Shown in pieces: positions 6,236 to 28,880 of a DNA stretch of 35,232 nucleotides. This DNA is from a virus: IMG/VR virus record IMGVR_UViG_3300050120_000208, positions 1 through 35,232 of that record. One strand, written 5' to 3'. Every line of letters starts with the position of its first letter. Position 1 is the stretch's first letter. The position numbers and the translations under genes were made by a program. The notes below the pieces were generated by a model that did no database searches, had not been told where the DNA came from, and saw only the letters and a program-made list of their open reading frames with translations.

Positions 6236-7870
6236 CTACCTCGCCTTCTTCTTCGCGGCCTTAGCCTTCGCGACCGGCTTGGCAGCCTTCGGTCCATCAT
6301 ATTTGGACGTCCGCATTTCCGGCGGCAGATACCCGGCCTTGCCGCCAGCGTTGGACTTCTTGACGAGATCGGTCGCCAGCTTTGCCAGCTCGGATTTCTT
6401 TTCCTTGCCGGTGATCGGCTGCTTCGGATCGCAGAGCGCGATGGCTTCCTTGCAGGCTTGTGCCGTGACGCCGGCGAAATAGTCCGCTGCATCGAAGCTG
6501 GCGCGGAGTTCGGCGTTCAGCTTCTTCGCATCGAGGGCTTCGAGCAGCGCGCGATCCTCGTCGCGATCTTCGGCAAGCGGCAGCATGTGCTGCACGCTAC
6601 CGCCGAGGTCGAGCGCGGATGCCGCCAGACCGGCGAGAATGCGGATGAGCTGGTCAACCGGCTTCTTGCGGAACATAGCAAGCTGTTCGGCAAACTCGCT
6701 GTCGTCCTCGCCGCGGTTGTGTTGGATGCAGACCGGACCATCTTCCGATGTCAGTGCGGCCGCAATAGCTGCCAAGCCGAGATTTGAGTCGAGCGCCAGG
6801 ACAGACTCGGCCGCCGTGGTGATCTGCGCCGATATCCTACCGGCCAGCGCGGCAGAGATCATTGGCGCGGCAGCTTCACCTTTGGCGACAGCCTTCTTCT
6901 TCTCCGTCGCCTTCTTCTCGGAAGGCTTCTGCACGCCGTACTTTATCTCGATCTCGCCGTTGTGCTGCTGCCCGACGATGACACCATACTTCTCGCGGTC
7001 TCCGGCTGTGATCTGGCCTTTCGGCAGGCTGGCCCACCATCGCGCACCGTCAGGCAGGTCGCTGCCGTCAGAAACCCACTTCCAGCCCTCGCCTTTCAGC
7101 CGCTCAATGGTGGTCGCGATCTTTTCGTCGGCGAGCTTTTTGAGCAGCTTGAGATCGGTTGCGACCAGTTCCGGATTATTCTCATGCGTGAACAGATCCT
7201 CGGTGGTCGCTCCGCCAGCCGTCTTGTAGGCCTCGATGCCGACCAAGCGCAGCAGCCCGGCAGTCTGGTGAGACTCGCCCAGTATCTCGCCTCGGATTTC
7301 ATGACAGCTGGTGTGCTTGCCGACCTTCTTGAGAATCGCCACCTGCCGTTTCAGATCGGTTTCCAGCGTGAACGCGCCGGCCTCATCCTCGTCGAGATCA
7401 CCCTTGCGCCAGGCGGCACGGACCTCCGGAGCAAGCCGCCCCAGCGCCAGCGATTGCTTCACGGACTTCGCCGATAGTCCGTAATCCTTCGCAATCGCCT
7501 CAGGCGTCTTGCCGGCATCGACCAGCTTTGCGAAGGCCTCGAACTCATCGACGGGATGCATCGCGGTGCGGATGTAGTTTGTGGTCAGCGACGTGTCGGC
7601 AGCAGCGGCCTCGTCATCCTCTCGCAAGATGCATGGCACCGGCGCGGCCTTGTCGTAATCGCCGTCGCGGGCCAGGATGTGCAGGGCCTGTAGCCGCATG
7701 CCGCCATCGGTGACGAGATAGCCCGCTCCGTTCTTGCGGACGGTCAGCGGCACCAGCAATCCCTTTTCGCGGATGCTGGCGAGTAGGCCTTCGTCCGGGG
7801 CCTTATCGGTCTGGCGGACGTTGGAGGGGTCGATCTTGAGGTCGGAAAGTTTGGCTTCGATGATTTGCAT
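6236..7870 (-). CDS. ParB/Spo0J-like nuclease-domain protein
   Basis: A 544-aa protein. Residues 1-100 are a ParB N-terminal domain (LKIDPSNVRQT, SIREKGLLVPLTVR, VTDGGMRLQALHIL), with GGMR in the place of the usual GxRR CTP/phosphate-binding box. Residues about 115-150 form the HTH region (TPEAIAKDYGLSAKSVKQSLALGRL). The long middle part is typical of large phage ParB-like proteins. The tail is Lys/Ala-rich (AKPVAKAKAAKKKAR), which suggests nonspecific DNA binding. GGAG stands six bases before the ATG, and the start overlaps the TAA of the methyltransferase fragment (TAATG). No parA partner is in view, so it is probably a transcription or DNA-processing factor rather than a partition protein. 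Confidence 0.88.
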   Translation of the reverse strand: MQIIEAKLSDLKIDPSNVRQTDKAPDEGLLASIREKGLLVPLTVRKNGAGYLVTDGGMRLQALHILARDGDYDKAAPVPCILREDDEAAAADTSLTTNYIRTAMHPVDEFEAFAKLVDAGKTPEAIAKDYGLSAKSVKQSLALGRLAPEVRAAWRKGDLDEDEAGAFTLETDLKRQVAILKKVGKHTSCHEIRGEILGESHQTAGLLRLVGIEAYKTAGGATTEDLFTHENNPELVATDLKLLKKLADEKIATTIERLKGEGWKWVSDGSDLPDGARWWASLPKGQITAGDREKYGVIVGQQHNGEIEIKYGVQKPSEKKATEKKKAVAKGEAAAPMISAALAGRISAQITTAAESVLALDSNLGLAAIAAALTSEDGPVCIQHNRGEDDSEFAEQLAMFRKKPVDQLIRILAGLAASALDLGGSVQHMLPLAEDRDEDRALLEALDAKKLNAELRASFDAADYFAGVTAQACKEAIALCDPKQPITGKEKKSELAKLATDLVKKSNAGGKAGYLPPEMRTSKYDGPKAAKPVAKAKAAKKKAR

Positions 7871-11314: not shown

Positions 11315-12283
11315 CTACTCAGCCGCCTGTTGATGATGGTGAGGCAGATGGCCAAGTTTCCCGATGGCGTATGGATCGGTCACGGGCAAGCCCTCAAGCG
11401 CGCGCCATTTCGCCCATAGATCGGCCAGAAACATTTTGACCATGTAGCGGATGGCAGCATTTTTGATCCGACCGGGAGTCCACACATTTCGGAGATCGTC
11501 GCCGGCCTTGTGCATCTTCTTCCATTCTCCGACCGTGATCTTGATCCTCGCCGGGTCGCTATTGATCCGATGGCGATAGCTGTCAAACGCCTCGCGCCAG
11601 GGCGAGTTAGATCGCAGGAATGAAGGCCCCATCGCGCCTAGCAGTTTCATCTTCAGCCATGGATTATATGCCGTCGAAAGCCGCGTCGCGGCGTTGCCAT
11701 TCTTGTCGATGTATTCGCGGTCGATCAGATGCTCGGCTCTGCGCGACCTGCCGGCACCATCGGACCCGACGTCAAGGCCGGTGTATTTCCAGAACGATGA
11801 TGCATGACGCGCCTTGGCTGGGTCTAAATATGTGATCAGTACGGCGGCTAGCGCGGGACCGATGCCGCGAACGTCGGCGAGATATTCGGTATAGATCGGA
11901 ATTTTCTTGAGCGTGTGAACGAGCTGACCGAATTGAGATGTCTCCTGCGACTCCAGCCGCATATACTGATCGATCAGCATCAACTCTGTGTAGTCGGAAA
12001 TCAGCTCGTCGCCGGTGAAGCCGGACTCGAGAGGGATCGTGCGGTTGCGGGCGACGCCATCCGTCAGCCGGCGATATGACGCCTTGAGCTGATCGATGAT
12101 CTTCACCGCGTCAGCCGACAGTTCATCTGTAACGACGCCATCTTCGTCGACGATCTCTTCTTCGGTCTTAAGCTTGGCGCGGAAATTGGCGCAGAGGCGA
12201 AGGCCGGCCTGCATTCGCAGGGCTTGGAGATCGTATGATCCTCGGACCATCAACTTGAGAAGTCGGATATTTTCTGCTGACAT
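11315..12283 (-). CDS. Tas-like protein (Nop/IS110-C-terminal fold, no nuclease; TasA-like)
   Basis: 322 aa. The core at residues 127-170 (KIPIYTEYLADVRGIG, ALAAVLITYLDP, ASSFWKYTGL) matches the C-terminal region of IS110/IS116 transposases (Transposase_20) and the Nop fold pattern G-x-x-LAAxLI...AS..x.x.G. The following part (HRINSDPARIKITVGEWKKM, IKNAAIRYMVKMFLADLWAKW) is also shared with IS110-family C termini. It lacks the N-terminal RuvC-like DEDD domain of IS110, and no HNH is present; the first 120 residues are helical (coiled-coil-like). It is therefore not a self-sufficient transposase. A 28-repeat array of fixed 9-base spacers ends six bases before its ATG (12281-12283), and GAG of the last repeat serves as the only ribosome-binding-like element. 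Together these fit a TIGR-Tas effector of the nuclease-less class. No terminal inverted repeats are seen around it. Assignment by domain and architecture, not by alignment. Confidence 0.8.
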   Translation of the reverse strand: MSAENIRLLKLMVRGSYDLQALRMQAGLRLCANFRAKLKTEEEIVDEDGVVTDELSADAVKIIDQLKASYRRLTDGVARNRTIPLESGFTGDELISDYTELMLIDQYMRLESQETSQFGQLVHTLKKIPIYTEYLADVRGIGPALAAVLITYLDPAKARHASSFWKYTGLDVGSDGAGRSRRAEHLIDREYIDKNGNAATRLSTAYNPWLKMKLLGAMGPSFLRSNSPWREAFDSYRHRINSDPARIKITVGEWKKMHKAGDDLRNVWTPGRIKNAAIRYMVKMFLADLWAKWRALEGLPVTDPYAIGKLGHLPHHHQQAAE

Positions 12284-12288
12284 TTTAA

Positions 12289-12783
12289 TAACTCGCTTTC
12301 AGGGTCTGGGTTTCTGCTGTTCCATGGCTCGCTCTACAACTTTGGTGTTCTGTAAGTGGCTGGCTCGCTATTCTTCCGTGGGTTGCTCCGCGTCTCTGGC
12401 TCGCTATCGCTTATTGGGTTGCTTCATTAACGTGGCTCGCTGCATCAGCATGGATTGCTAAGCTGCTTTGGCTCGCTCCGATGGCTTGGGTTGCTATTTT
12501 CCTTTGGCTCGCTGCGCATCTTTGGATTTCTGGACGGAAGTGGCTCGCTGTAGTGGACTGGGTTTCTCTCACTTGCTGGCTCGCTACTGGACCTTGGCTT
12601 TCTTCAAGCGCCTGACTCGCTGACGCTTTATGGGTTACTCAGATCTCCTGGCTCGCTTCGGTGGATTGGGTTGCTAAGAATCACTGGCTCGCTGGCAGGG
12701 ACTGGGTTACTCCGCAGCGGTGGCTCGCTAAAAACGATTGGATTTCTTACACTCAATGGCTCGCTTGCGAACTCTGGGTTTCT
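12289..12783 (-). repeat. TIGR-like tandem interspaced guide array (28 repeats, 27 nine-base spacers)
   Basis: Plus-strand view: two 9-base repeats alternate every 18 bases without a single indel. Type 1 is TGGCTCGCT (12 exact of 14; TAACTCGCT at 12289 and TGACTCGCT at 12613 differ). Type 2 is TGG(G/A)TT(G/T/A)CT, 14 copies from 12307 to 12775, with variants TGGTGTTCT (12343) and TGGCTTTCT (12595). Spacers in order: TTCAGGGTC, GCTGTTCCA, CTACAACTT, GTAAGTGGC, ATTCTTCCG, CCGCGTCTC, ATCGCTTAT, TCATTAACG, GCATCAGCA, AAGCTGCTT, CCGATGGCT, ATTTTCCTT, GCGCATCTT, GGACGGAAG, GTAGTGGAC, CTCACTTGC, ACTGGACCT, TCAAGCGCC, GACGCTTTA, CAGATCTCC, TCGGTGGAT, AAGAATCAC, GGCAGGGAC, CCGCAGCGG, AAAAACGAT, TACACTCAA, TGCGAACTC. 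All differ. The transcript is expected from the minus strand, as part of the leftward unit (repeats then read AGCGAGCCA and AGNAAYCCA). The constant 36-base unit with two 9-base spacers matches the published form of TIGR guide RNAs as I recall it. One frame on the plus strand is open but for a TGA at 12613; the minus frame contains stops, so it is not coding. Confidence 0.88.
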
Positions 12784-19491: not shown

Positions 19492-19515
19492 GGGACCCTC
19501 CAAGGCGATGGAGGG

Positions 19516-19571
19516 AAGTTACACCTATCGAAACTTCCATGTCAAGCGGAAAGTTTAGCCTATCGAAACTT
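19516..19571 (-). promoter_or_regulatory. Leftward early promoter (pL-like) with repressor operators
   Basis: On the minus strand TTGACA (plus 19540-19545), an 18-base spacer and TAACTT (plus 19516-19521) form a good sigma-70 promoter for the leftward unit. The same 13-base site CCTATCGAAACTT occurs at 19524-19536, inside the spacer, and at 19559-19571, just upstream. The half-site TTTCGATA is shared with the divergent repressor/cro promoters at 20619-20661, so a repressor bound at 19524 would cover the promoter. Confidence 0.75.
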
Positions 19572-19723
19572 TTGCCTCGATGCGGCACCGCACCACGAAT
19601 TTCGAGTTAACGGCCTCGAAAAATCGGCGACATCGATTCGCGATAGGAAAGGGGCTGCCAGAAAGGGAAACGAGCTCTCCCAACGAGTCCGGCTCGATTC
19701 TAACCAGAGGTTCCGGTGTTTGT

Positions 19724-19750
19724 GGAAGCGAGCCTCAAGCGAGCGCTTCC
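19724..19750. repeat. Twin hairpin element, copy 1
   Basis: Stem GGAAGCG/CGCTTCC of seven pairs enclosing 13 bases (AGCCTCAAGCGAG). A near-identical 27-base element lies at 28631-28657, where the stem is GGGAGCG/CGCTCCC: the third base pair changes from A-T to G-C on both sides, a compensatory change that supports structure. No T-run follows, so it is not an ordinary terminator. Confidence 0.6.
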
Positions 19751-19755
19751 ACTCC

Positions 19756-19806
19756 CTCTAACAGCGAGTCTGTGGATAGAGCTAATCTCTAACAGCGAGT
19801 TCGCTG
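19756..19806. repeat. Direct repeat CTCTAACAGCGAGT (two copies) plus palindrome
   Basis: The 14-base word occurs at 19756-19769 and 19787-19800, 31 bases apart. The second copy runs into the inverted repeat CAGCGA-GT-TCGCTG (19793-19806). The core CAGCGAGT also occurs at 27723-27730, in another intergenic region. Candidate protein-binding sites; the binder is unknown. Confidence 0.5.
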
Positions 19807-19891
19807 GAGTAGTGGGAGGAGGTCTCAAGCGCGCCGGAGGCGCTTGCACCGCTCGGGCTGTGGAACGCTGACCCATGACCACGGGAAGTCT

Positions 19892-19942
19892 AAAAAAAAG
19901 TGTCAAGGGTTTCTGGGTCGTTTTCAGGCCTTGTCAAGACAC
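19892..19942 (-). terminator. Probable rho-independent terminator of the repressor transcript
   Basis: Read on the minus strand: GTGTC, five bases, AAGG, a 20-base loop, then CCTTGACAC followed by eight T (plus 19892-19899). Nine base pairs with a five-base bulge; the T-run is strong. It lies downstream of the repressor and its small partner gene, which both read leftward, and before the leftward early promoter. Confidence 0.5.
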
Positions 19943-20047
19943 GTTTTATTGTTTAAATATATCAGATAGTTACGGTACCACTTTTTTGGGGTTTGGCGGC
20001 CGTCCGGCCGATTTTGTGCACGTTGACAGCACTGATTCGGGTCCATC

Positions 20048-20248
20048 TCAGCGAGCCGGTCGCCACTCCGCTGCCGCCCGCTGCATGCAAATCAGCCGGG
20101 TCGGTGCGCGCGTCAAATCCACGCCTCGGGTCTGATTCGCGACCGTGACCTGGCACTCGCGCAAGTCCGCCGACTGCTGCAGCATCTGGCACGACCCCGG
20201 ATCAACCTGGCCCGCGGCAACCGCACAAAGGAAAACGGCGTAAATCAC
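20048..20248 (-). CDS. Small secreted/periplasmic-type protein behind the repressor
   Basis: 66 aa starting at GTG 20248, three bases after the repressor stop. The N terminus is a short hydrophobic segment (IYAVFLCAVAAG) resembling a signal peptide; the mature part has three more cysteines (SCQML, RECQV, ICMQ). Because it would be made from the repressor transcript in the lysogen, a lysogenic-conversion or exclusion role is plausible, though this is inference. Confidence 0.6.
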   Translation of the reverse strand: MIYAVFLCAVAAGQVDPGSCQMLQQSADLRECQVTVANQTRGVDLTRAPTRLICMQRAAAEWRPAR

Positions 20249-20251
20249 GGC

Positions 20252-20584
20252 CTACCCTGGCTTGAGGAGCGCCTTGGCGACCTCTATGATCTGCCTGCGC
20301 TGCGCCGGTTTTGCCTGGTCCCAGATCAGCCAAATAGGCTCCGGATCAAATGGGTTGCGAACCAGCAGCGAAGCAACATCCTCTGCCTTTACGGCGTTGG
20401 CTAGAGCCTCAAGGTAATCCTGGTCATAAGGCTCCTTCCCGTTCTCCTTCATCGAAACGCGGGTCTTCGTCGTGCCCAGCTCGTCGGCGAGCTGCTGCTG
20501 CGTCATATCGTGTTTCTTCCGCCATTCCTTGAAGAACGTGCGTTTGCGCGGATGTGGGTTTCTAAACTCAATCTTTCTAGGCAT
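20252..20584 (-). CDS. XRE-family (CI-like) repressor
   Basis: 110 aa. HTH at about residues 17-70: FKEWRKKHDMTQQQLADELGTTKTRVSMKEN (in parts) with the XRE pattern LAxxLGTTxxxVSxxENG. The C-terminal part lacks a Ser/Lys peptidase domain, so LexA-type self-cleavage is not expected. It diverges from the Cro-like gene; its own promoter (plus 20591-20619) has -10 six bases before the ATG, implying a leaderless mRNA. A basic N terminus (RNPHPRKRTFF) is unusual. Confidence 0.85.
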   Translation of the reverse strand: MPRKIEFRNPHPRKRTFFKEWRKKHDMTQQQLADELGTTKTRVSMKENGKEPYDQDYLEALANAVKAEDVASLLVRNPFDPEPIWLIWDQAKPAQRRQIIEVAKALLKPG

Positions 20585-20590
20585 TCCAAT

Positions 20591-20670
20591 ATGTTACACC
20601 TTGCAAAACACGATGTCGTTATCGAAAGCCAAAACTTTGCTTGACGGAAATGTTTCGATAAGCTTAACAT
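20591..20670. promoter_or_regulatory. Divergent repressor/cro promoters with inverted operator
   Basis: Rightward: TTGACG (20641-20646), 17-18 bases, TTAACAT (20664-20670), then ATG at 20677. Leftward (minus strand): ACGACA (plus 20614-20619), 17 bases, TAACAT (plus 20591-20596), then six bases to the repressor ATG. In both cases the start codon falls where transcription should begin and no Shine-Dalgarno sequence is present, so both mRNAs appear leaderless. The exact inverted repeat TTATCGAAA (20619-20627)/TTTCGATAA (20653-20661) matches the operators at 19524 and 19559. Confidence 0.7.
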
Positions 20671-20676
20671 CTGGCT

Positions 20677-20919
20677 ATGAGCGAACCAAAACACCCCCTA
20701 AAAACATATCGCGAAGCCAACAAGATCACGTTGGAAAAGCTTGCCGAGAGCCTCGGCACCACCAAGGCCACCCTCTCGCAGATCGAGAACGGAAAGCGTC
20801 AGGTTAGCCTGGAACTCCTTCCGAAAATTCGCGAGGAGACCGGCATCCCCGCCAAGATGCTCCGGCCCGATCTGGCCGAGATTTTCGACGGCGATCCGGC
20901 TGAGGCCACCGCCTCATGA
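20677..20919 (+). CDS. Cro-like XRE-family regulator
   Basis: 80 aa. HTH over residues 8-62: YREANKITLEKLAESLGTTKATLSQIENGKR and LPKIREETGIPAKML (in parts). First gene of the rightward unit, opposite the CI-like repressor, from an apparently leaderless promoter. The next gene overlaps its stop (ATGA). The role as Cro is inferred from position. Confidence 0.85.
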   Translation: MSEPKHPLKTYREANKITLEKLAESLGTTKATLSQIENGKRQVSLELLPKIREETGIPAKMLRPDLAEIFDGDPAEATAS

Positions 20920-21134
20920 AGCTCATCAACTTCCTGAAATCCAACAAAACAAGCCGCGAAGACTTCGCTCTCCTGATCGGTGTTAACACCATGGCCCTCG
21001 ACCGATATTTGAGCGGCGAACGCATTCCTCGGCAAACGACGATGGCGAAGATTGTCAGCATCACGCAGGGTTGCGTACAGCCGAACGACTTCTATGCGGA
21101 GGCAATAGCTGCCTTGAAGAAGCTACCCTCATGA
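20916..21134 (+). CDS. Small HTH protein (second Cro/CII-like)
   Basis: 72 aa, starting in the ATGA of the previous gene. HTH pattern: SREDFALLIGVNTMALDRYLSGERIPRQTTMAKIV (in parts), XRE-like. The tail (FYAEAIAALKKLPS) is a short helix. Likely DNA-binding regulator of the early rightward unit. Confidence 0.75.
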   Translation: MKLINFLKSNKTSREDFALLIGVNTMALDRYLSGERIPRQTTMAKIVSITQGCVQPNDFYAEAIAALKKLPS

Positions 21135-21326
21135 CCCTCCCCTCCGCGCAAACCTCTCCGCCAGATGCTCGAACAGCACCGCGGCCGCATTCGCCGGCTC
21201 TGAGCCATCCTCAATCATCGTCGCGACCAGCGCCTCGAAGCATCGCTCCATCACAAGAATGCGGGCTCCGGCGAGACGGCTGGCGGCTTCGTTTTCATTC
21301 GTTGCAGAGCTGAGGGTTTTCACCAT
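21129..21326 (-). CDS. Possible small antisense-encoded helical protein
   Basis: 65 aa read against the surrounding rightward genes. The sequence NENEAASRLAGARILVMERC, FEALVATMIEDGSEPANAAA, VLFEHLAERFARRGG has normal composition and G/C-ending codons, whereas the plus-strand frame over the same bases is Pro/Ser/Arg-rich low complexity. Its start faces that of the gene at 21325, and its stop overlaps the end of 20916-21134. No ribosome site is obvious. Either a true convergent gene or a fortunate frame; confidence moderate. Confidence 0.45.
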   Translation of the reverse strand: MVKTLSSATNENEAASRLAGARILVMERCFEALVATMIEDGSEPANAAAVLFEHLAERFARRGGS

Positions 21327-21741
21327 GACCGTAGTCAGCATCACGACCGCGAAAAACGCAAAACCTGACGGCGAAGCAGACTTCACGAGAACCGAAGACC
21401 GGTTCGTTATTTTCAGAAAAATTGTCAGCGTTATCAAGTCCTCGTGGCCGAAAAAGACGGCCGCGCACGTCTCGTTTCTGACCGGTGTCTCGGAGCGCGC
21501 GGTGCAATTCTGGCTCGCCGGCGAAACGCGGATGACGCTCGAACACGTCGCAGCGCTGATGAAGACGGAACAGGGATATCAGATTCTCGCGGCCATCATG
21601 GGCGACCGCAAGCAGGAATGGTGGCTGGACACGATGACGGCGGCGGAGCTGCGCGCATCCCGCAAGGCACTGCGGGTTGAACAGCGGCGCAGCATCCGAC
21701 TCAAGGAAATGCGCGCTCAGCGCGAAATGTACGAAGACTAA
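21325..21741 (+). CDS. Helix-turn-helix phage protein
   Basis: 138 aa from the ATG at 21325. Central HTH-like part: SWPKKTAAHVSFLTGVSERAVQFWLAGETRMTLEHVAALM (in parts), with the C-terminal third a basic helix (RASRKALRVEQRRSIRLKEM). A DNA-binding protein; target unknown. About 190 bases separate it from the preceding plus-strand gene, and the facing ORF lies in the gap. Confidence 0.75.
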   Translation: MTVVSITTAKNAKPDGEADFTRTEDRFVIFRKIVSVIKSSWPKKTAAHVSFLTGVSERAVQFWLAGETRMTLEHVAALMKTEQGYQILAAIMGDRKQEWWLDTMTAAELRASRKALRVEQRRSIRLKEMRAQREMYED

Positions 21742-21802
21742 TCAGTAAGCATCACAAGAGTCGTAGCCGCACGAGGCGGTTTCGGGCACCGGGTCAGCCC
21801 CG

Positions 21803-21970
21803 ATGGTCAAGAGATTCTTCATCGGCATCGTTCTGACGTTCGCTCAGTTTTTCACTGAATGCGCGGCGCGTTGCAATGATGTTGCCGATTCTCTCTCGAC
21901 CGGCGAGACCGTCGCGGAAGTCAAGAAACGCCGTAAAAATGGGGAAAACAATGACAGTGATGTTCAATGA
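21803..21970 (+). CDS. Small protein overlapping gcrA start
   Basis: 55 aa, too short for usual cut-offs. The first 20 residues (VKRFFIGIVLTFAQFFTECA) are hydrophobic after a basic start, like a signal or anchor; the tail is Lys/Arg/Asn-rich (EVKKRRKNGENNDSD). It overlaps the gcrA start by 20 bases in another frame. Function unknown. Confidence 0.5.
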   Translation: MVKRFFIGIVLTFAQFFTECAARCNDVADSLSTGETVAEVKKRRKNGENNDSDVQ

Positions 21971-22565
21971 AGTCTGGACCGAGACGCGCGTCGCAAGGCT
22001 GACCGAGCTTTGGGCCAATGGCTTCAGCTGCTCGCATATCGCTGCTGATCTCGGTTGCTTCGCACATTGCCGTGACGGCGGCCGAAGTGCGGTGGTGGGA
22101 AAAATTCACAGAATCAAGCTTCCTCATCCCGCGGGCAAGATGGCGCGAAGCGGTAGCCACACAGCGCGCACCCGGGCCCCGCGCGCTGCACCAGCGACCG
22201 CTCGCCCCTTCCTCGCCCCGCCCGCCGCCCCCCGTCTCCGCAACGGCCACGATCCCTCCCAGCGCCGCAACCCGTCGCACAACATCGTCGCCGCGATCGC
22301 GATTGCCGGGACGGAGCCGGGGTTGCCGGAAAATCTCAAGGGCGAAGAACCGGATGGGACTGGCATGAAGTTTATCGATCTGCAGGCAGACAGCTGTCGT
22401 TGGCCGCGCGGAACGCCGGGAAACCCAGACTTCGAGTTCTGTGGCGGCCACGCGCTCGTCGACAGTCCATATTGCTCGCGTCATTCGCGGATCGCTTATG
22501 CCGCGCCGCAAGCGCGAGTTCGGCAAGATAAATGGGCGTTGCTGGGCGCTGATCTCAAATCCTGA
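21951..22565 (+). CDS. gcrA: GcrA-family transcription regulator
   Basis: 204 aa from the ATG at 21951 (GGGGA upstream). Residues 8-56 are the GcrA HTH: WTETRVARLTELWANGFSCS, HIAADL, RSAVVGKIHRIKL. A Pro/Arg/Ala-rich linker follows, and the C-terminal 45 residues carry the second family block: CRWPRGTPGNPDFEFCG, PYCSRHSRIAY. GcrA binds sigma-70 RNA polymerase and acts at GANTC sites methylated by CcrM in alphaproteobacteria; phage copies may retune host or phage promoters. The stop codon sits at the junction of an exact 13-base tandem duplication (TGATCTCAAATCC at 22550 and 22563). Confidence 0.9.
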   Translation: MTVMFNEVWTETRVARLTELWANGFSCSHIAADLGCFAHCRDGGRSAVVGKIHRIKLPHPAGKMARSGSHTARTRAPRAAPATARPFLAPPAAPRLRNGHDPSQRRNPSHNIVAAIAIAGTEPGLPENLKGEEPDGTGMKFIDLQADSCRWPRGTPGNPDFEFCGGHALVDSPYCSRHSRIAYAAPQARVRQDKWALLGADLKS

Positions 22566-22600
22566 TCTCAAATCCTGTTCTCAACCAGAAGGAGTCCTCC

Positions 22601-23179
22601 ATGGCAAAGAAGAAAGACAAGGCGGCATCACCGGCGCCGAAGACGACGATCGAAAGCATGAGCGATGATCAGTTGTACAGTCTTACCGAAACTCACCGCC
22701 AGAAATACGAGCTGGTGCTTGAGGCCAAGAACAAGGCCAACAAGGCGCTGATCGACTACGGCAAGATCATCAAGTCAAACCTCGGGGCCACGGGCCTTCA
22801 GGACATCAAGGACTTGATCTCCCTCGATACGCCGGAAGGCGAAGCGACGATGAAGGCGGAGATGGAACGCAAGGTGCGGGTGCTCCGATGGATGGGCTGC
22901 CCGATCGGCTCCCAAGGCGCATTGTTCGCCGATGCCGATCGCACCCCGATCACAGAACGCGCCTTCAACGAAGGCAAGCGCCAGGGCCTCGCCGGCGAGC
23001 CGATCGACAATCCTCACCATCACACCACCGAGGCGCACAGATCGCACGTCGCTGGGTTTGCGTCTGGTCAGAAAACCCTTGCAACAAAGGGGTTTTCGAG
23101 GCTCGATCCCGACGTCTCCAGCGATCTCAAAAAGGCTTCCTCGATCGGATCATCGCGGCCGACGTTCGAGGTTCATTAA
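22601..23179 (+). CDS. Conserved phage hypothetical protein
   Basis: 192 aa with GAAGGAG before the ATG. A helical first half (LYSLTETHRQKYELVLEAKN, KANKALIDYGKIIKSNLGAT) precedes the block RTPITERAFNEGKRQGLAGE, NPHHHTTEAHRSHVAGFASG, which recalls the ribosome-modulation-factor-like (Rmf/CrpP) repeat of small proteins (A-x-x-x-G-x-x-A). Common between gcrA and the resolvase in related prophages, as I recall. Function unknown. Confidence 0.75.
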   Translation: MAKKKDKAASPAPKTTIESMSDDQLYSLTETHRQKYELVLEAKNKANKALIDYGKIIKSNLGATGLQDIKDLISLDTPEGEATMKAEMERKVRVLRWMGCPIGSQGALFADADRTPITERAFNEGKRQGLAGEPIDNPHHHTTEAHRSHVAGFASGQKTLATKGFSRLDPDVSSDLKKASSIGSSRPTFEVH

Positions 23180-23183
23180 ATAG

Positions 23184-23753
23184 ATGGGGCACGTTACCGG
23201 GTCAATCTTCTGTCTCGATCTCGGCGTGACTTCGGGTTTCGCCCGGGGCCGGCCTGGTGACGTGCCTGTATCTGGAACGGTGCGGCTCAAGAAGCCGTCC
23301 GAAACAATCGATGTTGCGTATGCCAATCTGGATTGGTTTCTGCGCGAGGAGTTTGAGGCGCGCCGGCACGAGCTGGTGATCAAGGAAAAGATGCTATCGC
23401 TGCAGGCCTTCGCGACGATTGGAAATGCCGAGAAAACCGTCCGTGCACATGCTGCGTATCACGGGATCGTTGAATTGGTCTGCGTTCAGTACGGCATTGC
23501 TTGGGACGATGTAGCGGACTCGACGGCGAGAAAACATTTTCTGGGTCGCGCTCACATGGGGTCTCGCGATGAGACGAAGGCGGCGGTGGTCGCGCGTTGC
23601 CAGCTTCTCGGCTTGATCCCGAAAGATTGCCGCGAAGACAATCGCGCTGATGCTTGCTGCATCCATGACTGGGCCTGCGCCAACTTCGGCAGCCGTTCGG
23701 CCTCGATTTCAAATTTTGCACTGTTCGACCAAGGGGGAAAGAAACGTGCGTGA
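23184..23753 (+). CDS. RuvC-like Holliday-junction resolvase
   Basis: 189 aa. RNase-H fold acidic residues: D12 (CLDLGVTSGFA), E68 (VIKEKM), and D152/D156 (EDNRADACCIHDW). The spacing matches phage RuvC-type resolvases of about 170-190 aa. Cleaves branched DNA during replication and before packaging. Four bases after the previous stop; the following gene starts inside its end. Confidence 0.88.
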   Translation: MGHVTGSIFCLDLGVTSGFARGRPGDVPVSGTVRLKKPSETIDVAYANLDWFLREEFEARRHELVIKEKMLSLQAFATIGNAEKTVRAHAAYHGIVELVCVQYGIAWDDVADSTARKHFLGRAHMGSRDETKAAVVARCQLLGLIPKDCREDNRADACCIHDWACANFGSRSASISNFALFDQGGKKRA

Positions 23754-24033
23754 ACCTCCCGCCACCTTCGCCGACATTGCCGTCGCGCTGACACTCGCCT
23801 CAGGCAAGCTGCAGCTCGATCTGGCGCAAACCAAGATCATCGCGGCACGCGTCGGGCTTTCGAAGATGGGGCTCTCGCTGGTCATCGACGGACTGGAACG
23901 CGATGCCGAGCTCGTCCACCAGGCGATAGAGCTGTTCAAGAAAATGTCCGTGGTCGAGCCGCAGGTGCGGGCCTTGCTGGCGCGTAAAGCGACGCGGCGA
24001 TGGACGGATTTTGCGAGGGCGGCGGTGGTATGA
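23746..24033 (+). CDS. Hypothetical helical protein
   Basis: 95 aa from the GTG at 23746 (GGGGGAAAG upstream), overlapping the resolvase by 8 bases. Helical: ATFADIAVALTLASGKLQLD, LAQTKIIAARVGLSKMGLSL, ELVHQAIELFKKMSVVEPQV. The tail is basic. The stop overlaps the next start (ATGA). No family is recognised. Confidence 0.65.
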   Translation: MREPPATFADIAVALTLASGKLQLDLAQTKIIAARVGLSKMGLSLVIDGLERDAELVHQAIELFKKMSVVEPQVRALLARKATRRWTDFARAAVV

Positions 24034-24821
24034 AGCGAACAAAACCATTCGCCACCGAGGCCGAGCTCTGCGCAAGGTTCATCGCGGCTGTCGGCGCCGA
24101 CTGGACGCCGTATGCGGAAACCGCAGGATGGGATATTTTGCTTGTCCGTAAAGCCGACGGCTTCCAAGTCGGTATCGAGGCGAAGCTCAGAATAAATGCG
24201 CATGTGATCTCGCAGGCGCTTGAGGAGTATGGCGCCTTCGCCGCTGACCGCTCCGGCCCGGATTGTCGAGCCATTTTGGTACCGGAGGAAGATGCCGGTG
24301 GTTTCGACCTGATCTGCACCTATCTCGGGATCACCATCATTCGTGTCCTTGAAAAGCAGCGCGACCACTGCGGCGGTGGTGTCGTCTACAGGTCTGCGGC
24401 TTTCTCGCCAGCCCTTCCGAAACCGCCAGATCATGCCGGCGACAACTATCGTCATTGGCACGAATGGGCGCCGGCCAGGCGCCATGAATTGCCGGATTAC
24501 GTCCCCGACGTCGCGGCGGGATCACCTTCACCGATCCAACTGACGCACTGGAAAATCTGCGCCATCAAGATCGCGGTCATCCTGGAAAAGCGTGGCTTTC
24601 TCGTCCGTGGCGATTTCAAGCACGTCAATATCGATCATCGTCGATGGCTGCCGTCGGGTGCCGGATGGTTGCGGCTCGATGCCGGCCGATACCTCAGGGC
24701 ACCGTACTTTCCCGATTTCAAGGCGCAGCATCCCCGCGTCTATGATGAAATCGCCGCGGATTATGATAGCTGGAAGCCTGTAGTTCATCAGCCCGCGGTT
24801 CAGCAGAAGGAACTGCTTTAG
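24030..24821 (+). CDS. Putative PD-(D/E)XK-fold nuclease-like protein
   Basis: 263 aa from the ATG at 24030 (ATGA). The segment GWD35ILLVRK...FQVGIE50AK52L is the PD-(D/E)XK pattern D-x(n)-E-x-K, followed by a helix with Q62 (HVISQALEEYGAF), and the next strand (CRAILVPEE) fits. The C-terminal 120 residues (WKICAIKIAVILEKRGFLVRGDF, VNIDHRRWLPSGAGWLRLD) resemble a small DNA-binding or structural domain. Substrate unknown; it may take part in replication, recombination or host DNA degradation. Confidence 0.65.
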   Translation: MKRTKPFATEAELCARFIAAVGADWTPYAETAGWDILLVRKADGFQVGIEAKLRINAHVISQALEEYGAFAADRSGPDCRAILVPEEDAGGFDLICTYLGITIIRVLEKQRDHCGGGVVYRSAAFSPALPKPPDHAGDNYRHWHEWAPARRHELPDYVPDVAAGSPSPIQLTHWKICAIKIAVILEKRGFLVRGDFKHVNIDHRRWLPSGAGWLRLDAGRYLRAPYFPDFKAQHPRVYDEIAADYDSWKPVVHQPAVQQKELL

Positions 24822-24824
24822 CTC

Positions 24825-25178
24825 ATGACCCGCACCGTCAACTACTCCCCCCTCCTGCTGCGCTGGATCAAGCGCGCCGCCCGCGCCGGCAGCTCCGCGG
24901 AACAGATCGCGCGGCGGTACCATCAAGAAGAGAAGTTCGTGCAGGATCTCTGCCGCCTGCACGGCATCACGATTACCGGCGTCGCGTTATCGGATCAGGT
25001 ACCGGGACGGGCGCCGGCGGCGGAGCTGAGTGTCATATCGGTGCGGTTGGCGAACGAGGCCCTGACGAAGATCGAGAGGGAGGCTGGCCGCCGTGGCACG
25101 ACGGCGCCGCTGCTTTGCGCGCAGCTGCTTGACATCATCGCCGCAGATGAGCTTTTCCACGCCACGCTGGACATTTAA
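24825..25178 (+). CDS. HTH/ribbon-helix-helix-type DNA-binding protein
   Basis: 117 aa. The N-terminal part (LLRWIKRAARAGSSAEQIARRY) looks like an HTH; the C-terminal part (ISVRLANEALTKIEREAGRR, GTTAPLLCAQLLDIIAADEL) follows the ribbon-helix-helix pattern. It immediately precedes the replicative helicase, which starts at its last base. Possibly a replication initiator or regulator. Confidence 0.65.
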   Translation: MTRTVNYSPLLLRWIKRAARAGSSAEQIARRYHQEEKFVQDLCRLHGITITGVALSDQVPGRAPAAELSVISVRLANEALTKIEREAGRRGTTAPLLCAQLLDIIAADELFHATLDI

Positions 25179-27025
25179 TGACGGCGAGGCGCACGAAAGA
25201 AGGAGCATTATCCGAACGCGTAGCCCGCCAGCTGCTCGGTGCGCCGACTACCTATGACGCCGAGACCGGTACACAACGCTACCAGGAAGATATCAGCCTC
25301 TCTCTCGTCACCGGCCGCCTGTTCGACCTCGAGGAAGAGGTCTCGCTCACCCACCTCGATCTCATCCGGCGCTGCAAGAAGCTCGAGAACGGTCAGGCCG
25401 AGGCATGGCTGGAACAGAACGTCACCCGGGCCGATCCGCTTCCACTACCCGCCGATTCCGCCACGGAACGCGCCCTGATCGGCATGCTGGCGTCACAGCC
25501 GGAACTGATGGCCGCGATCGAGGAAGAGGTCACGGTCGACCATTTCGGCGAGCCGATTCACAAGCAGATTTTTGCCTCGATCGCTGGTCTGCCGTTCGTC
25601 CCGGGCCATCCGGTCAGCATGCAGCAGCTTCTCGACGCCGCCGGTGGTGACGGCTTGATGCCGGTTTTTGACGGCTATACCCTCTCCCGCTACGTCGCGG
25701 TGATCATCGCCGAAGCGCCGATGGCGCCGGACGCCGCGCATCTCGCCCGCACCCTGGCCGCCCAGATCCGCTCCCAGGCCAACCGTGACGGCGACGTCGA
25801 CGACGAATTCGATCTGGAACCGGAGCCGGCGCCGTTCCAGCCCACCATGGGCCTGCTGATGTGGGCGGATCGCAACCGGCCCGGCAAGCAGTACGAATAC
25901 ATCATCGACGATCTGATCCCGGAGCGGCAGGTTGTTGTCCTGATGGGCGACACCGGGACCGGGAAATCGTTCCTGACCACCGGCATGATGATGGCGCTGT
26001 GCCGTGCCGTACCCTTCTTTGGTCGCCGCATCCTCAAACCGCTCGGTGTCATCTGGTGCGCCTATGAGGCTGCCGAGGGTGCCAACTCCCGGATGCGGGC
26101 CTATGCCAGGCACCACGGGCTCCAGGACGGCTTCCTGCCATTCGGTGCGCTTCAGCACCCCCTTCCGCTGTGGCCGAATGAACCGAACGGCGATCTCCTG
26201 ATCAAGGAGATCCAGGGCATCGTCCGGACCCAATTCAACGGTGTCCCCCTCGGCGCCATCGTGGTCGACACCTATAACGCCGCGACGCCTGGAGCCTCGG
26301 AAATCGACAGCGAGGTGGTTTCCCGGATCCGCAGCTATTTCCATCGTGCGGTCCAGGAAACCGGTGCCACACTGATCATCGTCGGTCACACCAATTCGGC
26401 CGGCAAGCACCGCGGCAACGAGCAGCTCACCAACAACGTCGACACCATCATCAAGGTGTCCTTCAAGACCCGCACCGAGGGCCGAGAGGTAATCCAGCTC
26501 AAGGACGACGCCGGCCGCGATATCCGCACCATGAAGGTCGTGAAACAGCGGGAGGGCCGGTCCGGCGCCGAGTTCGATTTTGTGCTCCGCAGCGTCGCCG
26601 ACGGCACCAAGAACCAGTTCGGTAACGACCGGACGTCGTGCGTGGTCGAGGAGTTCGGCGGGGCTACGCCGGCATCCAACCCGACCGTGAAGGGGCCCAG
26701 GCTGACCCATGAACGCACCGTGATCCTGCAGGCGCTGCGCACCGCGATCGAGGAGCACGGCGAGCCGACCCCGGCACTCCTCCACCTACCGCGGTCGATC
26801 TCCCGGGTGGTCAATGCCCAGTTCTGGAAACGGATCTACCTCGAGAAAAGCCCGGATCCTGAGGCCACCGACAACACCGTCAACAAGCGCCTGCGGGACG
26901 CCAGCGGCCAGTTCCAGAACCTGGGGCTGATCGGGCGATCCAATCCATGGGTATGGCTCAGCGGAAAGGCCGCCAATGAGGACCCTCATACCGACATCGC
27001 CCAGCCCGAATTTCCGGATGTCTAA
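25178..27025 (+). CDS. Replicative helicase/RepA-like AAA ATPase with DnaB-N domain
   Basis: 615 aa. Residues about 90-195 look like a DnaB N-terminal domain (ATERALIGMLASQPELMAAI, DHFGEPIHKQIFASI). The ATPase: Walker A G257DTGTGKS264, an AAA_25-like strand (GVIWCAYEAAEGANSRM), Walker B AIVVD364T, sensor TLIIVGHTN (H404). The C-terminal 100 residues hold a winged-helix-like part. Comparable to RepA-type hexameric helicases of phages and plasmids. It contains the only helicase in the window, so the phage replication origin is likely near. Confidence 0.9.
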   Translation: MTARRTKEGALSERVARQLLGAPTTYDAETGTQRYQEDISLSLVTGRLFDLEEEVSLTHLDLIRRCKKLENGQAEAWLEQNVTRADPLPLPADSATERALIGMLASQPELMAAIEEEVTVDHFGEPIHKQIFASIAGLPFVPGHPVSMQQLLDAAGGDGLMPVFDGYTLSRYVAVIIAEAPMAPDAAHLARTLAAQIRSQANRDGDVDDEFDLEPEPAPFQPTMGLLMWADRNRPGKQYEYIIDDLIPERQVVVLMGDTGTGKSFLTTGMMMALCRAVPFFGRRILKPLGVIWCAYEAAEGANSRMRAYARHHGLQDGFLPFGALQHPLPLWPNEPNGDLLIKEIQGIVRTQFNGVPLGAIVVDTYNAATPGASEIDSEVVSRIRSYFHRAVQETGATLIIVGHTNSAGKHRGNEQLTNNVDTIIKVSFKTRTEGREVIQLKDDAGRDIRTMKVVKQREGRSGAEFDFVLRSVADGTKNQFGNDRTSCVVEEFGGATPASNPTVKGPRLTHERTVILQALRTAIEEHGEPTPALLHLPRSISRVVNAQFWKRIYLEKSPDPEATDNTVNKRLRDASGQFQNLGLIGRSNPWVWLSGKAANEDPHTDIAQPEFPDV

Positions 27026-27026
27026 A

Positions 27027-27055
27027 ATGTCCCATATGTCCTCTATGTCCCATGG
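27027..27055 (+). repeat. ATGTCCCATATGTCC repeats, first cluster
   Basis: ATGTCCCATATGTCC at 27027-27041 and a shorter ATGTCCCAT at 27045-27053, just behind the helicase stop. The same 14-15-base word recurs at 27125 and 28528. The first two copies flank the leader of the gene at 27116. All three exact copies read MSHMS in frame. Candidate operator or replication iteron. Confidence 0.6.
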
Positions 27056-27115
27056 CGAGATTAAATGATTGGAAATAAAGGAAAAAATAGACAGGGCATA
27101 AGGGACAACATCGCT

Positions 27116-27709
27116 ATGCCTGACATGTCCCATATGTCCCCGATCGAGCGGGCGAGGCTTGCCGCGCTGGTCGAATTGGATGGCGACCCGGCACTGCGCC
27201 AGTACCTCCTCGGAGCCATGGGCTCGGCCCAATCTAGACCCTCCCGCCGTGAGCGGGAGGTCCCTGTACAGTGGAACCAAATCTGGGTTCTCAACCGCCT
27301 CGAAGAGGCCGCCGAGGTCCGCGCCATGATGCCGGCGTCAACGCGCCCGAAGGAGTTCGGTCAGGCATGGCCGGCATACGATTACGATAGAGGAGATTTG
27401 AACGCCCAGCTCGAAACATATGAGCTCGAAAAGACGCTGGCCGACCGCAACAAGGTCCGTCTCCAGCCGTCAGCCGCCCAGGTCACACGGGCGGAACAGG
27501 CTGAACGCTGGCCCTTCGAGTTCCTTTCCGACTGGCCCGAGCTGGCGCGCGCCATCGGGCTGCGCACCCTGTGGTCGGTGATGAAGGTCGATATCCGCAA
27601 GCGCTGCGAGGCCCGCGGCATCGATCACGCCGAGTTCAATGTGCAGTGGCAGGCGGCACTGGCGGTGATCACAGGACGGCTGATTGCGCGCAAGGTGCCG
27701 GTCTCATAA
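27116..27709 (+). CDS. Conserved phage hypothetical protein, DUF6362-like
   Basis: 197 aa from the ATG at 27116. An earlier ATG at 27065 would add 17 residues but lies in AT-rich sequence between repeats, so I prefer the later one. The sequence NRLEEAAEVRAMMPASTRPKEFG, AWPAYDYDR and LSDWPELARAIGLRTLWSVM, AALAVITGRL (in parts) resembles the DUF6362 family common beside phage helicases. The third ATG (27125) begins inside a repeat copy. Function unknown. Confidence 0.7.
   Translation: MPDMSHMSPIERARLAALVELDGDPALRQYLLGAMGSAQSRPSRREREVPVQWNQIWVLNRLEEAAEVRAMMPASTRPKEFGQAWPAYDYDRGDLNAQLETYELEKTLADRNKVRLQPSAAQVTRAEQAERWPFEFLSDWPELARAIGLRTLWSVMKVDIRKRCEARGIDHAEFNVQWQAALAVITGRLIARKVPVS
27125..27140 (+). 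repeat. ATGTCCCATATGTCCC repeat, second copy
   Basis: Exact copy of the 15-base word of 27027 plus one C, overlapping the start of the gene at 27116 (codons for MSHMS). The inverted word GGGACA stands at 27102-27107, so a GGGACA/TGTCCC hairpin is possible. See 28505-28541 for the third copy. Confidence 0.6.
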
Positions 27710-27781
27710 CCGCCAGTCTTATCAGCGAGTTGAGGCTCCTATCTAATGCAAAGCGTTAACCGATTTTGAGTATGCCGGGTC

Positions 27782-28285
27782 ATGGCTAAACGCGACGATC
27801 TGGTGAAAGCATACATCGGCGCCCTCGATGCCGGCACCTTGGTGATCCTTACCGGTTCTGGCGGAAAATCAGGCGTCTGTCCCGGACCGGCATCCGGCCA
27901 GATCCCCTTCGAAACCCTCTGGTTTGCCAAGGCTCAGCACGCCGAACTCGTTCTGGCGCAGTGCCCCGAAGGATGGGCTGATATCGCGCCGGCCGCGCTC
28001 CGCGACGAGGTCGTCAACGCCGCGGCCGCGCTCGGTGCCTCATTCCGCACCGCCGCCGAGGTCTATGCCGACGCCAAAAGGACCGTTGAGCAGATCATGG
28101 AGAACGTCGAGCGGGCGCGTATCCGAGGGGAGCTGCGCAAGATGAACGCCGACTATAAGCTTTACCGGCAAAATGAGCTGTCGTTGGGGAGAAAGCCCGT
28201 CGGCTACGGTGAGCACCTCACGTCTTTTACCCGCAGTCTTGTGGTCTTGGCTGCTACTGAACGCGAACGCCAGAAGCAGGGTTGA
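27782..28285 (+). CDS. Hypothetical protein
   Basis: 167 aa. First part: LVKAYIGALDAGTLVILTGSGGKSG with a glycine-rich turn that is not a Walker A. Middle and C-terminal parts are helical (ALRDEVVNAAAALGASF, TVEQIMENVERARIRGELRKM). The upstream 72 bases hold CAGCGAGT (27723). No family recognised. Confidence 0.65.
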   Translation: MAKRDDLVKAYIGALDAGTLVILTGSGGKSGVCPGPASGQIPFETLWFAKAQHAELVLAQCPEGWADIAPAALRDEVVNAAAALGASFRTAAEVYADAKRTVEQIMENVERARIRGELRKMNADYKLYRQNELSLGRKPVGYGEHLTSFTRSLVVLAATERERQKQG

Positions 28286-28504
28286 ACAGTCGTCGTTCGC
28301 CCTAGACGATCTGCCCAAAAGAGGGCATTCTGGATGGGACAGGAAGAACAAATATACCCTCCGCAGGACCGAATCAGGAGCCGATTGATGTTCGGTTTTC
28401 GGAAATGTTCCATAAAACCGATGTCCTATTTGATGTCCTCAGTGATGTCTAATACATCTTTTTAAAATAAATATTCTTCTTTTATGCCAGATACTTACGA
28501 AAAT

Positions 28505-28541
28505 GGGACATCCGTAAAAGCTGCCAAATGTCCCATATGTC
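28505..28541 (+). repeat. ATGTCCCATATGTC repeat, third copy, with inverted half
   Basis: ATGTCCCATATGTC at 28528-28541; upstream, GGGACAT at 28505-28511 pairs with ATGTCCC (28528-28534) to give a 7-bp stem with a 16-base loop. It lies next to the AT-rich part of the intergenic region. Confidence 0.6.
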
Positions 28542-28630
28542 ACTTGACATTCCGAAAGTTGCGCGGCGTCTCTATGCGCGGACATACGTGATGGGCGAAA
28601 TCTGCCCGCGGCCAAAGAAAAGGCCGACAA

Positions 28631-28657
28631 GGGAGCGAGCACCAAGCGAGCGCTCCC
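28631..28657. repeat. Twin hairpin element, copy 2
   Basis: Stem GGGAGCG/CGCTCCC around 13 bases (AGCACCAAGCGAG). Compared with 19724-19750 the loop differs at two positions and the third stem pair changes compensatingly. No T-run follows. Confidence 0.6.
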
Positions 28658-28880
28658 CAGATAGACCGGACAAGAACCGGCCAGCAGAAACTCTAAAACC
28701 TCCTTCTGAACTTCTGCTCTTTGGTGACAGCTGTGCTTCGCGCGCCTTGACGGCGCTCAGCACTACCAAGACGGAAGCACTTCCTTTGCAGAGCCATCTT
28801 AAGAATTAGGAGCGCGACGGCGTTTCGGCGCGCGCCGCCGTGGCTCGCTTATTGTCACCGCCCTCGCACGCGAGGCCTAC

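Follow-up and report, generated by a model that had tools for sequence, protein, structure and literature searches.

We analysed a 35,232-base virus record from IMG/VR (IMGVR_UViG_3300050120_000208; the window hereafter is this whole stretch, with no larger genome behind the record), and found that two similar 27-base hairpins within it, element 1 (19724-19750, + strand) and element 2 (28631-28657, + strand), have counterparts at the same two places in related phages. Because these relatives keep stem-loops at both places while the letters change in matched pairs, it seems to be the folded shape that counts, probably that of RNA near the beginning of long transcripts. A sequence-only reading of the window had taken one paired base change between the two copies as a sign that their fold is important, and this is supported both by paired changes in relatives and by left-locus hairpins whose stems differ from phage to phage. 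It is likely that the hairpins are structured single-strand elements. We tentatively read them as structured leaders, one on each of two long phage operons, for which antitermination is the likeliest of the mechanisms considered.

The two 27-mers (GGAAGCGAGCCTCAAGCGAGCGCTTCC and GGGAGCGAGCACCAAGCGAGCGCTCCC) are present as that reading claimed and share 23 of their 27 bases. The mismatches fall at positions 3, 11, 12 and 25; two of these, 3 and 25, pair with each other in the stem, A-T in element 1 versus G-C in element 2. Element 1 forms the hairpin GGAAGCG-A-GC-CTCAA-GC-GAG-CGCTTCC and element 2 forms GGGAGCG-A-GC-ACCAA-GC-GAG-CGCTCCC. The full stem of element 1 reaches 9 bp (19722-19752, GTGGAAGCG/CGCTTCCAC), a stem matched by 1 of 500 shuffles, and that of element 2 is 7 bp (10 of 500). 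A consensus of both elements with at most three mismatches occurs at exactly these two sites in the window and nowhere in 100 dinucleotide shuffles. Taken hairpin by hairpin, RNA folding energy is only modestly unusual (z of -1.8 for element 1 and -3.2 for element 2), and the case for the hairpins rests on relatives and not on single-hairpin energy. The elements bracket a switch and replication module, as had been noted: an HTH_3 repressor-like gene at its left edge (20252-20584, - strand), an HTH_3 Cro-like gene (20677-20919, + strand) and a RepA/DnaB-type replication helicase with AAA_25 and DnaB N-terminal domains (25178-27025, + strand) lie between them, with counterparts of the hairpins at both places in relatives.

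Searching the viral collection for the exact core with a gap of 2-8 nt yielded 78 stretches. Among those with the same 4-nt gap, and setting aside a near-identical record, only L047 (phage G001) extends the stem by at least 3 pairs. Record 3300050122_000136, which is 99.97% identical to the window over two compared stretches, was not counted as independent. Protein-anchored scans added L110/L113, L114, L115, L138, L139, L140/L141 and L145; the comparison table for L141 was the same as that for L140, and the two were counted once. The right locus was found in relatives through the conserved gene adjoining element 2 (27782-28285, + strand), which has no known function. The replication block is common to the window and its relatives, except for the 5-kb L145, which shares the gene adjoining element 2. 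Two further stretches, L029 and L053, hold the exact core but were fetched by that core and not counted; L029 scores 25 bits with the RNA model, in a record without other blastn match to the window at E 0.01.

The right locus lies at the end of the early genes and before the late genes, and nine lineages reach it (the window, G001, L110, L114, L115, L138, L139, L140 and L145). In eight of the nine, a hairpin of one plan follows the homologue of gene 27782-28285: its outer stem of 7-8 bp ends inward in AGCG/CGCT, and beyond an asymmetric interior come 2-4 pairs of inner helix, closed by a loop of 4-7 nt. In the 1x3 form of the consensus, the L110 hairpin reads GGGAGCG-G-GC-CATA-GC-CCG-CGCTCCC, that of L138 GGAAAGCG-A-GCC-CTCTAAA-GGC-TCG-CGCTTTCC, and that of L140 GGAAGCG-G-CGCT-CCTG-AGCG-ACG-CGCTTCC. 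Position is also kept. All nine lineages have a -35-like TTGACA (28544-28549 in the window, + strand, 87 nt before element 2, where it is the right half of the palindrome ATGTCACTTGACAT), and the right hairpin begins 84-87 nt after it in six lineages and 66-69 nt after it in two; L139, the one miss of nine, also carries the TTGACA. Protein coding through the hairpin was considered and rejected: a frame is open in the first five lineages, but the hairpin lengths (26, 27, 29, 30 and 33 nt) differ by amounts that are not multiples of three, and these lengths, together with an extra stem pair in G001, argue against it.

We then aligned the eight right hairpins with element 1 (alignment A12, nine rows, L139 kept out) and checked for covariation. 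Pairing is kept through two-sided changes in 6 of 12 pairs and in 9 cells, and none of 500 shuffles reaches either figure. Copies thus occur in relatives and vary there with pairing kept, the point on which the sequence-only reading stood or fell. Across A12, 84.3% of cells pair compared to 75.4% in shuffled alignments, and the covariation score is 0.227 compared to 0.081 (0 of 500 shuffles for each), figures to be read with the tool's own warning that related rows make the shuffles generous. In controls that retain relatedness, slid versions of A12 were each worse, with at most one double-changed pair. RNAalifold recovers the right hairpin from the alignment with nine pairs, four of them carrying double changes. 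Five pairs of A12 are invariant and hence uninformative, and column pair 15-23 is paired in 3 of 9 rows.

At the left locus, which in relatives lies between the repressor side and the leftward promoter, the minus strand carries a GG-N10-GC site (TGGCACGGTATTTGCT and variants) and a hairpin. The evidence for these left hairpins is a stem search whose site patterns were devised once the sequences had been read. Within the 100 nt that follow the site, the longest stem measures 7-10 bp in all seven relatives that reach this locus. Six of the seven have the start of the hairpin 36-37 nt after the site; in L140, whose site was missed by the flexible pattern and found by eye, the distance is 52 nt. 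Stems as long arise in 1 (G001), 9 (L110), 0 (L114), 0 (L138) and 0 (L139) of 500 shuffles. The stems vary among phages with partial likeness (GGAGCGG in G001 and L114, AAGGT-type in L110 and L115), and RNAalifold, given six aligned left loci, did not recover the left hairpin. The GG-N10-GC sites, all on the minus strand, are at L110 2088, L114 5982, L115 4439, L111 1354, L138 2975, L139 3763 and L140 1623. We take the site to be sigma54-like by its consensus, which would be uncommon among phage promoters; in some relatives it is followed by a TAGAAT-like -10, so that sigma70 is possible too. Operator-like repeated boxes lie just upstream of the sigma54-like site in five relatives (L110, L114, L115, G001 and L140).

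Element 1 occupies this left place in the window, about 180 bp upstream of a leftward promoter-like region (19515-19572, - strand) in which a TTGACA (19545-19540) sits between two imperfect palindromes seen by eye (19572-19550 and 19537-19515, - strand). It is identical at 27 of 27 bases to the right-locus hairpin of G001/L047; the next outward pair differs, T-A versus G-C. Judging from this sequence match, the simplest account is that the left leader of the window phage was exchanged, so that a right-type hairpin may now stand at the left locus. Palindromes at the leftward promoter differ from phage to phage, such as GGGATATATCCC in L110 and CGGTTATCTAACCG in L138 (by eye).

The fixed position, the changing left stems and the kept right plan fit a folded single strand near two transcript starts, and we lean towards that form because of the asymmetric interior and the differing left stems. 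As we envisage it, element 2 would serve within a conserved structured intergenic region at the early/late boundary, as a fixed-plan hairpin about 85 nt after TTGACA, and element 1 would fill the relatives' second leader-hairpin place upstream of the leftward promoter. Each hairpin would fold in nascent RNA, the presumed active form, near the start of the late and leftward transcripts, and its target would be the very RNA polymerase that had transcribed it, or else a phage factor attached to this enzyme. Transcription might thereby be carried through the long late and leftward operons, as with put or nut RNAs. We prefer read-through since a temperate phage with two such leaders is known: in HK022, putL and putR are a pair of similar structured elements found in the leader regions of two long operons (PMC9378689). 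By this analogy a put-like or nut-like action of the hairpins can be inferred, and as a mechanism in its own right antitermination is possible, though we hold it with slightly more reserve than the combined reading.

The HK022 put elements are described as stem-loops near the promoter with internal loops, each RNA being about 70 nt with two stem-loops (PMC9378689). The likeness lies in two stem-loop leaders on two operons, which here are candidates, and the differences are several. The kept part here is one hairpin of 26-33 nt, preceded at the right locus by a second hairpin, hairpin A (28609-28626, + strand, CGGCC-AAAGAAAA-GGCCG), that is kept in part of the lineages. Hairpin A and the main hairpin (B) stand side by side in the window, L110, L114 and L115, and in G001 with another stem; before element 1, no counterpart of hairpin A was seen by eye. 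Where the described put elements stand in the leader of each early operon, the right copy here comes after the early and before the late genes, and the left copy lies upstream of the leftward promoter. No lambdoid relative of the window phage was found.

The lambda nutL and nutR sites have a boxA-boxB order and go with an N-like arginine-rich protein. Like lambda boxB, the present element is one small hairpin for each of two operons, variable among phages with pairing kept; unlike boxB, its stem is longer. Few phages are known to use antitermination that depends on RNA alone. An unlikely extension of our reading is that temperate phages have a two-site leader RNA system not described before, put-like, working by RNA alone and outside enterobacterial phages. 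In such a system, a leftward hairpin behind a sigma54-like promoter in relatives and a distinct hairpin of kept plan before the late operon would let both long operons run through terminators by RNA alone, with the window representing an exchange that put a right-type hairpin at the left site. A phage family with covarying leader hairpins at fixed positions on two operons would offer a second natural set for testing how RNA polymerase is steered by nascent RNA; in uncultured phages it would also mark where early genes give way to late ones. Among 10 of 69 papers listed for such leaders in related phages, no title or visible abstract had one, and a further literature search returned no paper. 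Kissing between left and right RNAs was also considered: the window shows extensive complementarity between the right hairpin and the left one when the latter is read leftward, but the loops of L110 and L114 are not complementary (by eye), and kissing was therefore rejected as a common mechanism.

Several observations weigh against this reading of the hairpins as leaders. Considered singly, the hairpins of A12 adopt the 1x3 interior as best fold in only two of nine sequences (element 2 and L115); five of the nine favour an extended inner helix that leaves a bulge or small loop on the 3' side, element 1 and G001 prefer a 3-nt bulge on the 5' side, and the preferred folds differ from the 1x3 form by 0.8-3.7 kcal/mol. 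This divergence from the consensus led us to lower our confidence in a structured single-strand element slightly, from rather high to the likely stated above. The L139 right hairpin is of different build, and 324 of 500 shuffles do as well. Within A12, pairing at the double-changed column pairs 4-36 and 12-26 is limited to 3 and 4 of 9 rows, respectively, the six further pair types are unexceptional (reached by 39 of 500 shuffles), and segments had been trimmed so that their arms were equally long, a choice that favours the alignment. The left stems of L115 (29 of 500) and L140 (34 of 500) are not rare in shuffles. A scan for consensus promoters near element 2 found none. No sigma54-like site precedes element 1 in the window; the only match with two mismatches in the vicinity (19645-19660, - strand) lies beyond the element and is at chance level. 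Element 1 itself has right-type sequence and polarity on the + strand, and its neighbours read leftward. Finally, A12 holds no one-sided change of the G-U type, only full swaps, and a double-stranded palindrome would give the same.

The strongest competing explanation, which we consider doubtful, is that the hairpins are RNA leaders that stabilise or protect transcript 5' ends, or stable ends of short regulatory RNAs, with no effect on termination. Hairpins that are rich in GC and keep a constant distance from a promoter-like site would suit this role, especially at the left locus with its 36-37 nt spacing in six of seven relatives and its retention of shape more than sequence, as would the further hairpins predicted in the right region; stabilisation alone does not account for the invariant AGCG/CGCT end of the right outer stem. 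An improbable alternative places the function in DNA, with hairpins on one DNA strand forming part of a replication origin or a single-strand initiation site. The polarity on the + strand shared by element 1 and the right hairpins and the restriction to Watson-Crick changes without G-U are compatible with such a site, and in the window and relatives repeated ATGTCC boxes surround an AT-rich stretch just upstream of element 2. In L110, L114, L115, G001 and L140 those boxes recur at two more loci, the left one and the one preceding the gene 27065 homologue, which makes them more like a shared operator than a single origin, and the fixed distance of the left hairpins from a promoter-like site likewise speaks against an origin.

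Similarly improbable, in our estimate, is that the elements are double-stranded operators, palindromes for a dimeric regulator whose halves change together since the same protein reads both. Each change is a full swap, and phage-specific palindromes do adjoin at the leftward promoter (by eye). Against such operators speaks the asymmetry of the interior, seen in the consensus and in the majority of best folds. Moreover, operators of one regulator would be alike, and outside the window the left and right copies of one phage are unlike as wholes, those of L114 and G001 sharing only a GGAGCG-like end. Transcription terminators insulating the module on both sides would explain GC-rich hairpins at operon boundaries and are very unlikely: no T run follows either stem on either strand, a scan finds none at element 2 and only one elsewhere in the element-1 region (19997-20010), and the right hairpin stands after, not before, TTGACA.

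Element 2, the hairpin we read as a candidate late-operon leader, belongs to a structured intergenic stretch, about 200 nt long, that separates the early from the late genes. The pairs of hairpin A are invariant in the window, L110, L114 and L115, and because they do not vary they carry no covariation support; in G001, two of its five pairs are broken and an alternative stem (TGTCCTCG/CGAGGACA) can form, and the hairpin is weak or absent in L138, L140 and L145 (by eye). A possible first hairpin, GGGC..GCCC (28593-28607, + strand), comes from fold prediction only. Downstream of element 2 lies hairpin D, GCGCC-TTGAC-GGCGC (28742-28756, + strand), whose arms are invariant in eight aligned lineages, L140 not being among them. 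Upstream lie the ATGTCC/GGGACAT boxes, operator or iteron-like (28421-28533, + strand), in place of which G001, L140 and L145 have GTGACA-type boxes at the right locus. ATGTCC boxes occupy two sites in the window (27018-27144 and 28421-28547) and three in L110, L114 and L115, and G001 and L140 have GTGACA-type boxes at all three loci (left, middle and right), as if regulator and box sites had changed together in these two phages. L110, L138, L139 and L140 carry about 2.6-5.3 kb of additional sequence between the homologues of 27065-27709 and 27782-28285, and L114 carries about 1.2 kb there; none is present in the window, L115 or G001.

Searches beyond the viral collection gave little. Among 50,697 phage records, the helicase matched only at less than 60% identity, and the two hairpin regions returned nothing convincing. 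In 397 genomes of the Xanthobacter order, a two-row protein profile found 5 matches, all weak (best E 4.4e-7), and RNA model R1, run without a positive control, found none; a five-row profile, also without a positive control, had none at E 1e-8 in 385 genomes of the class. No close relative of the window phage was seen in the bacterial genomes sampled. Rfam 15 at its curated cut-off had no match in the whole window, with best sub-threshold E of 0.64 and 8.6 in the two regions. A widespread interspersed repeat of the host was rejected for the pattern scanned: AGCGAGCNNNAAGCGAGCGCT matched 20 stretches in the GTDB genome collection, and in all 20 the stem extends outward by at most 2 pairs (this pattern only).

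The sequence-only reading had also placed AGCGAGC in the loops and seen in it a kinship with the repeat of an array elsewhere in the window. The motif is indeed in both elements, where it spans stem and loop and is not confined to the loop; the kinship was not borne out. AGCGAGC occurs 25 times in the window, 12 times in the array and 13 outside it (4 of these in the two elements), with 11.9 expected by chance over the whole window, and the exact 9-mer TGGCTCGCT is absent from all nine relative pieces searched (one phage nearly whole, the others about 18-21 kb). Since the motif is at chance level and the 9-mer is missing from these pieces, we see no functional link between hairpins and array: the edge repeat of this TIGR-like array shares a 7-mer with the hairpins, but the hairpins occur in relatives without such a repeat in the searched pieces. 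The array (12289-12765) consists of 36-nt units with two alternating 9-nt repeats (TGGCTCGCT and TGGGTTNCT) and 9-nt variable spacers. Beside it lies a 322-aa protein with a Transposase_20 (IS110-type) domain (11315-12283, - strand), and the two together look like the anatomy of a TIGR-Tas RNA-guided system (PMC12045711). A ParB-like protein recognised by eye (6236-7870, - strand) lies several kb from the array; ParB-like genes are reported to adjoin some TIGR arrays (PMC12045711).

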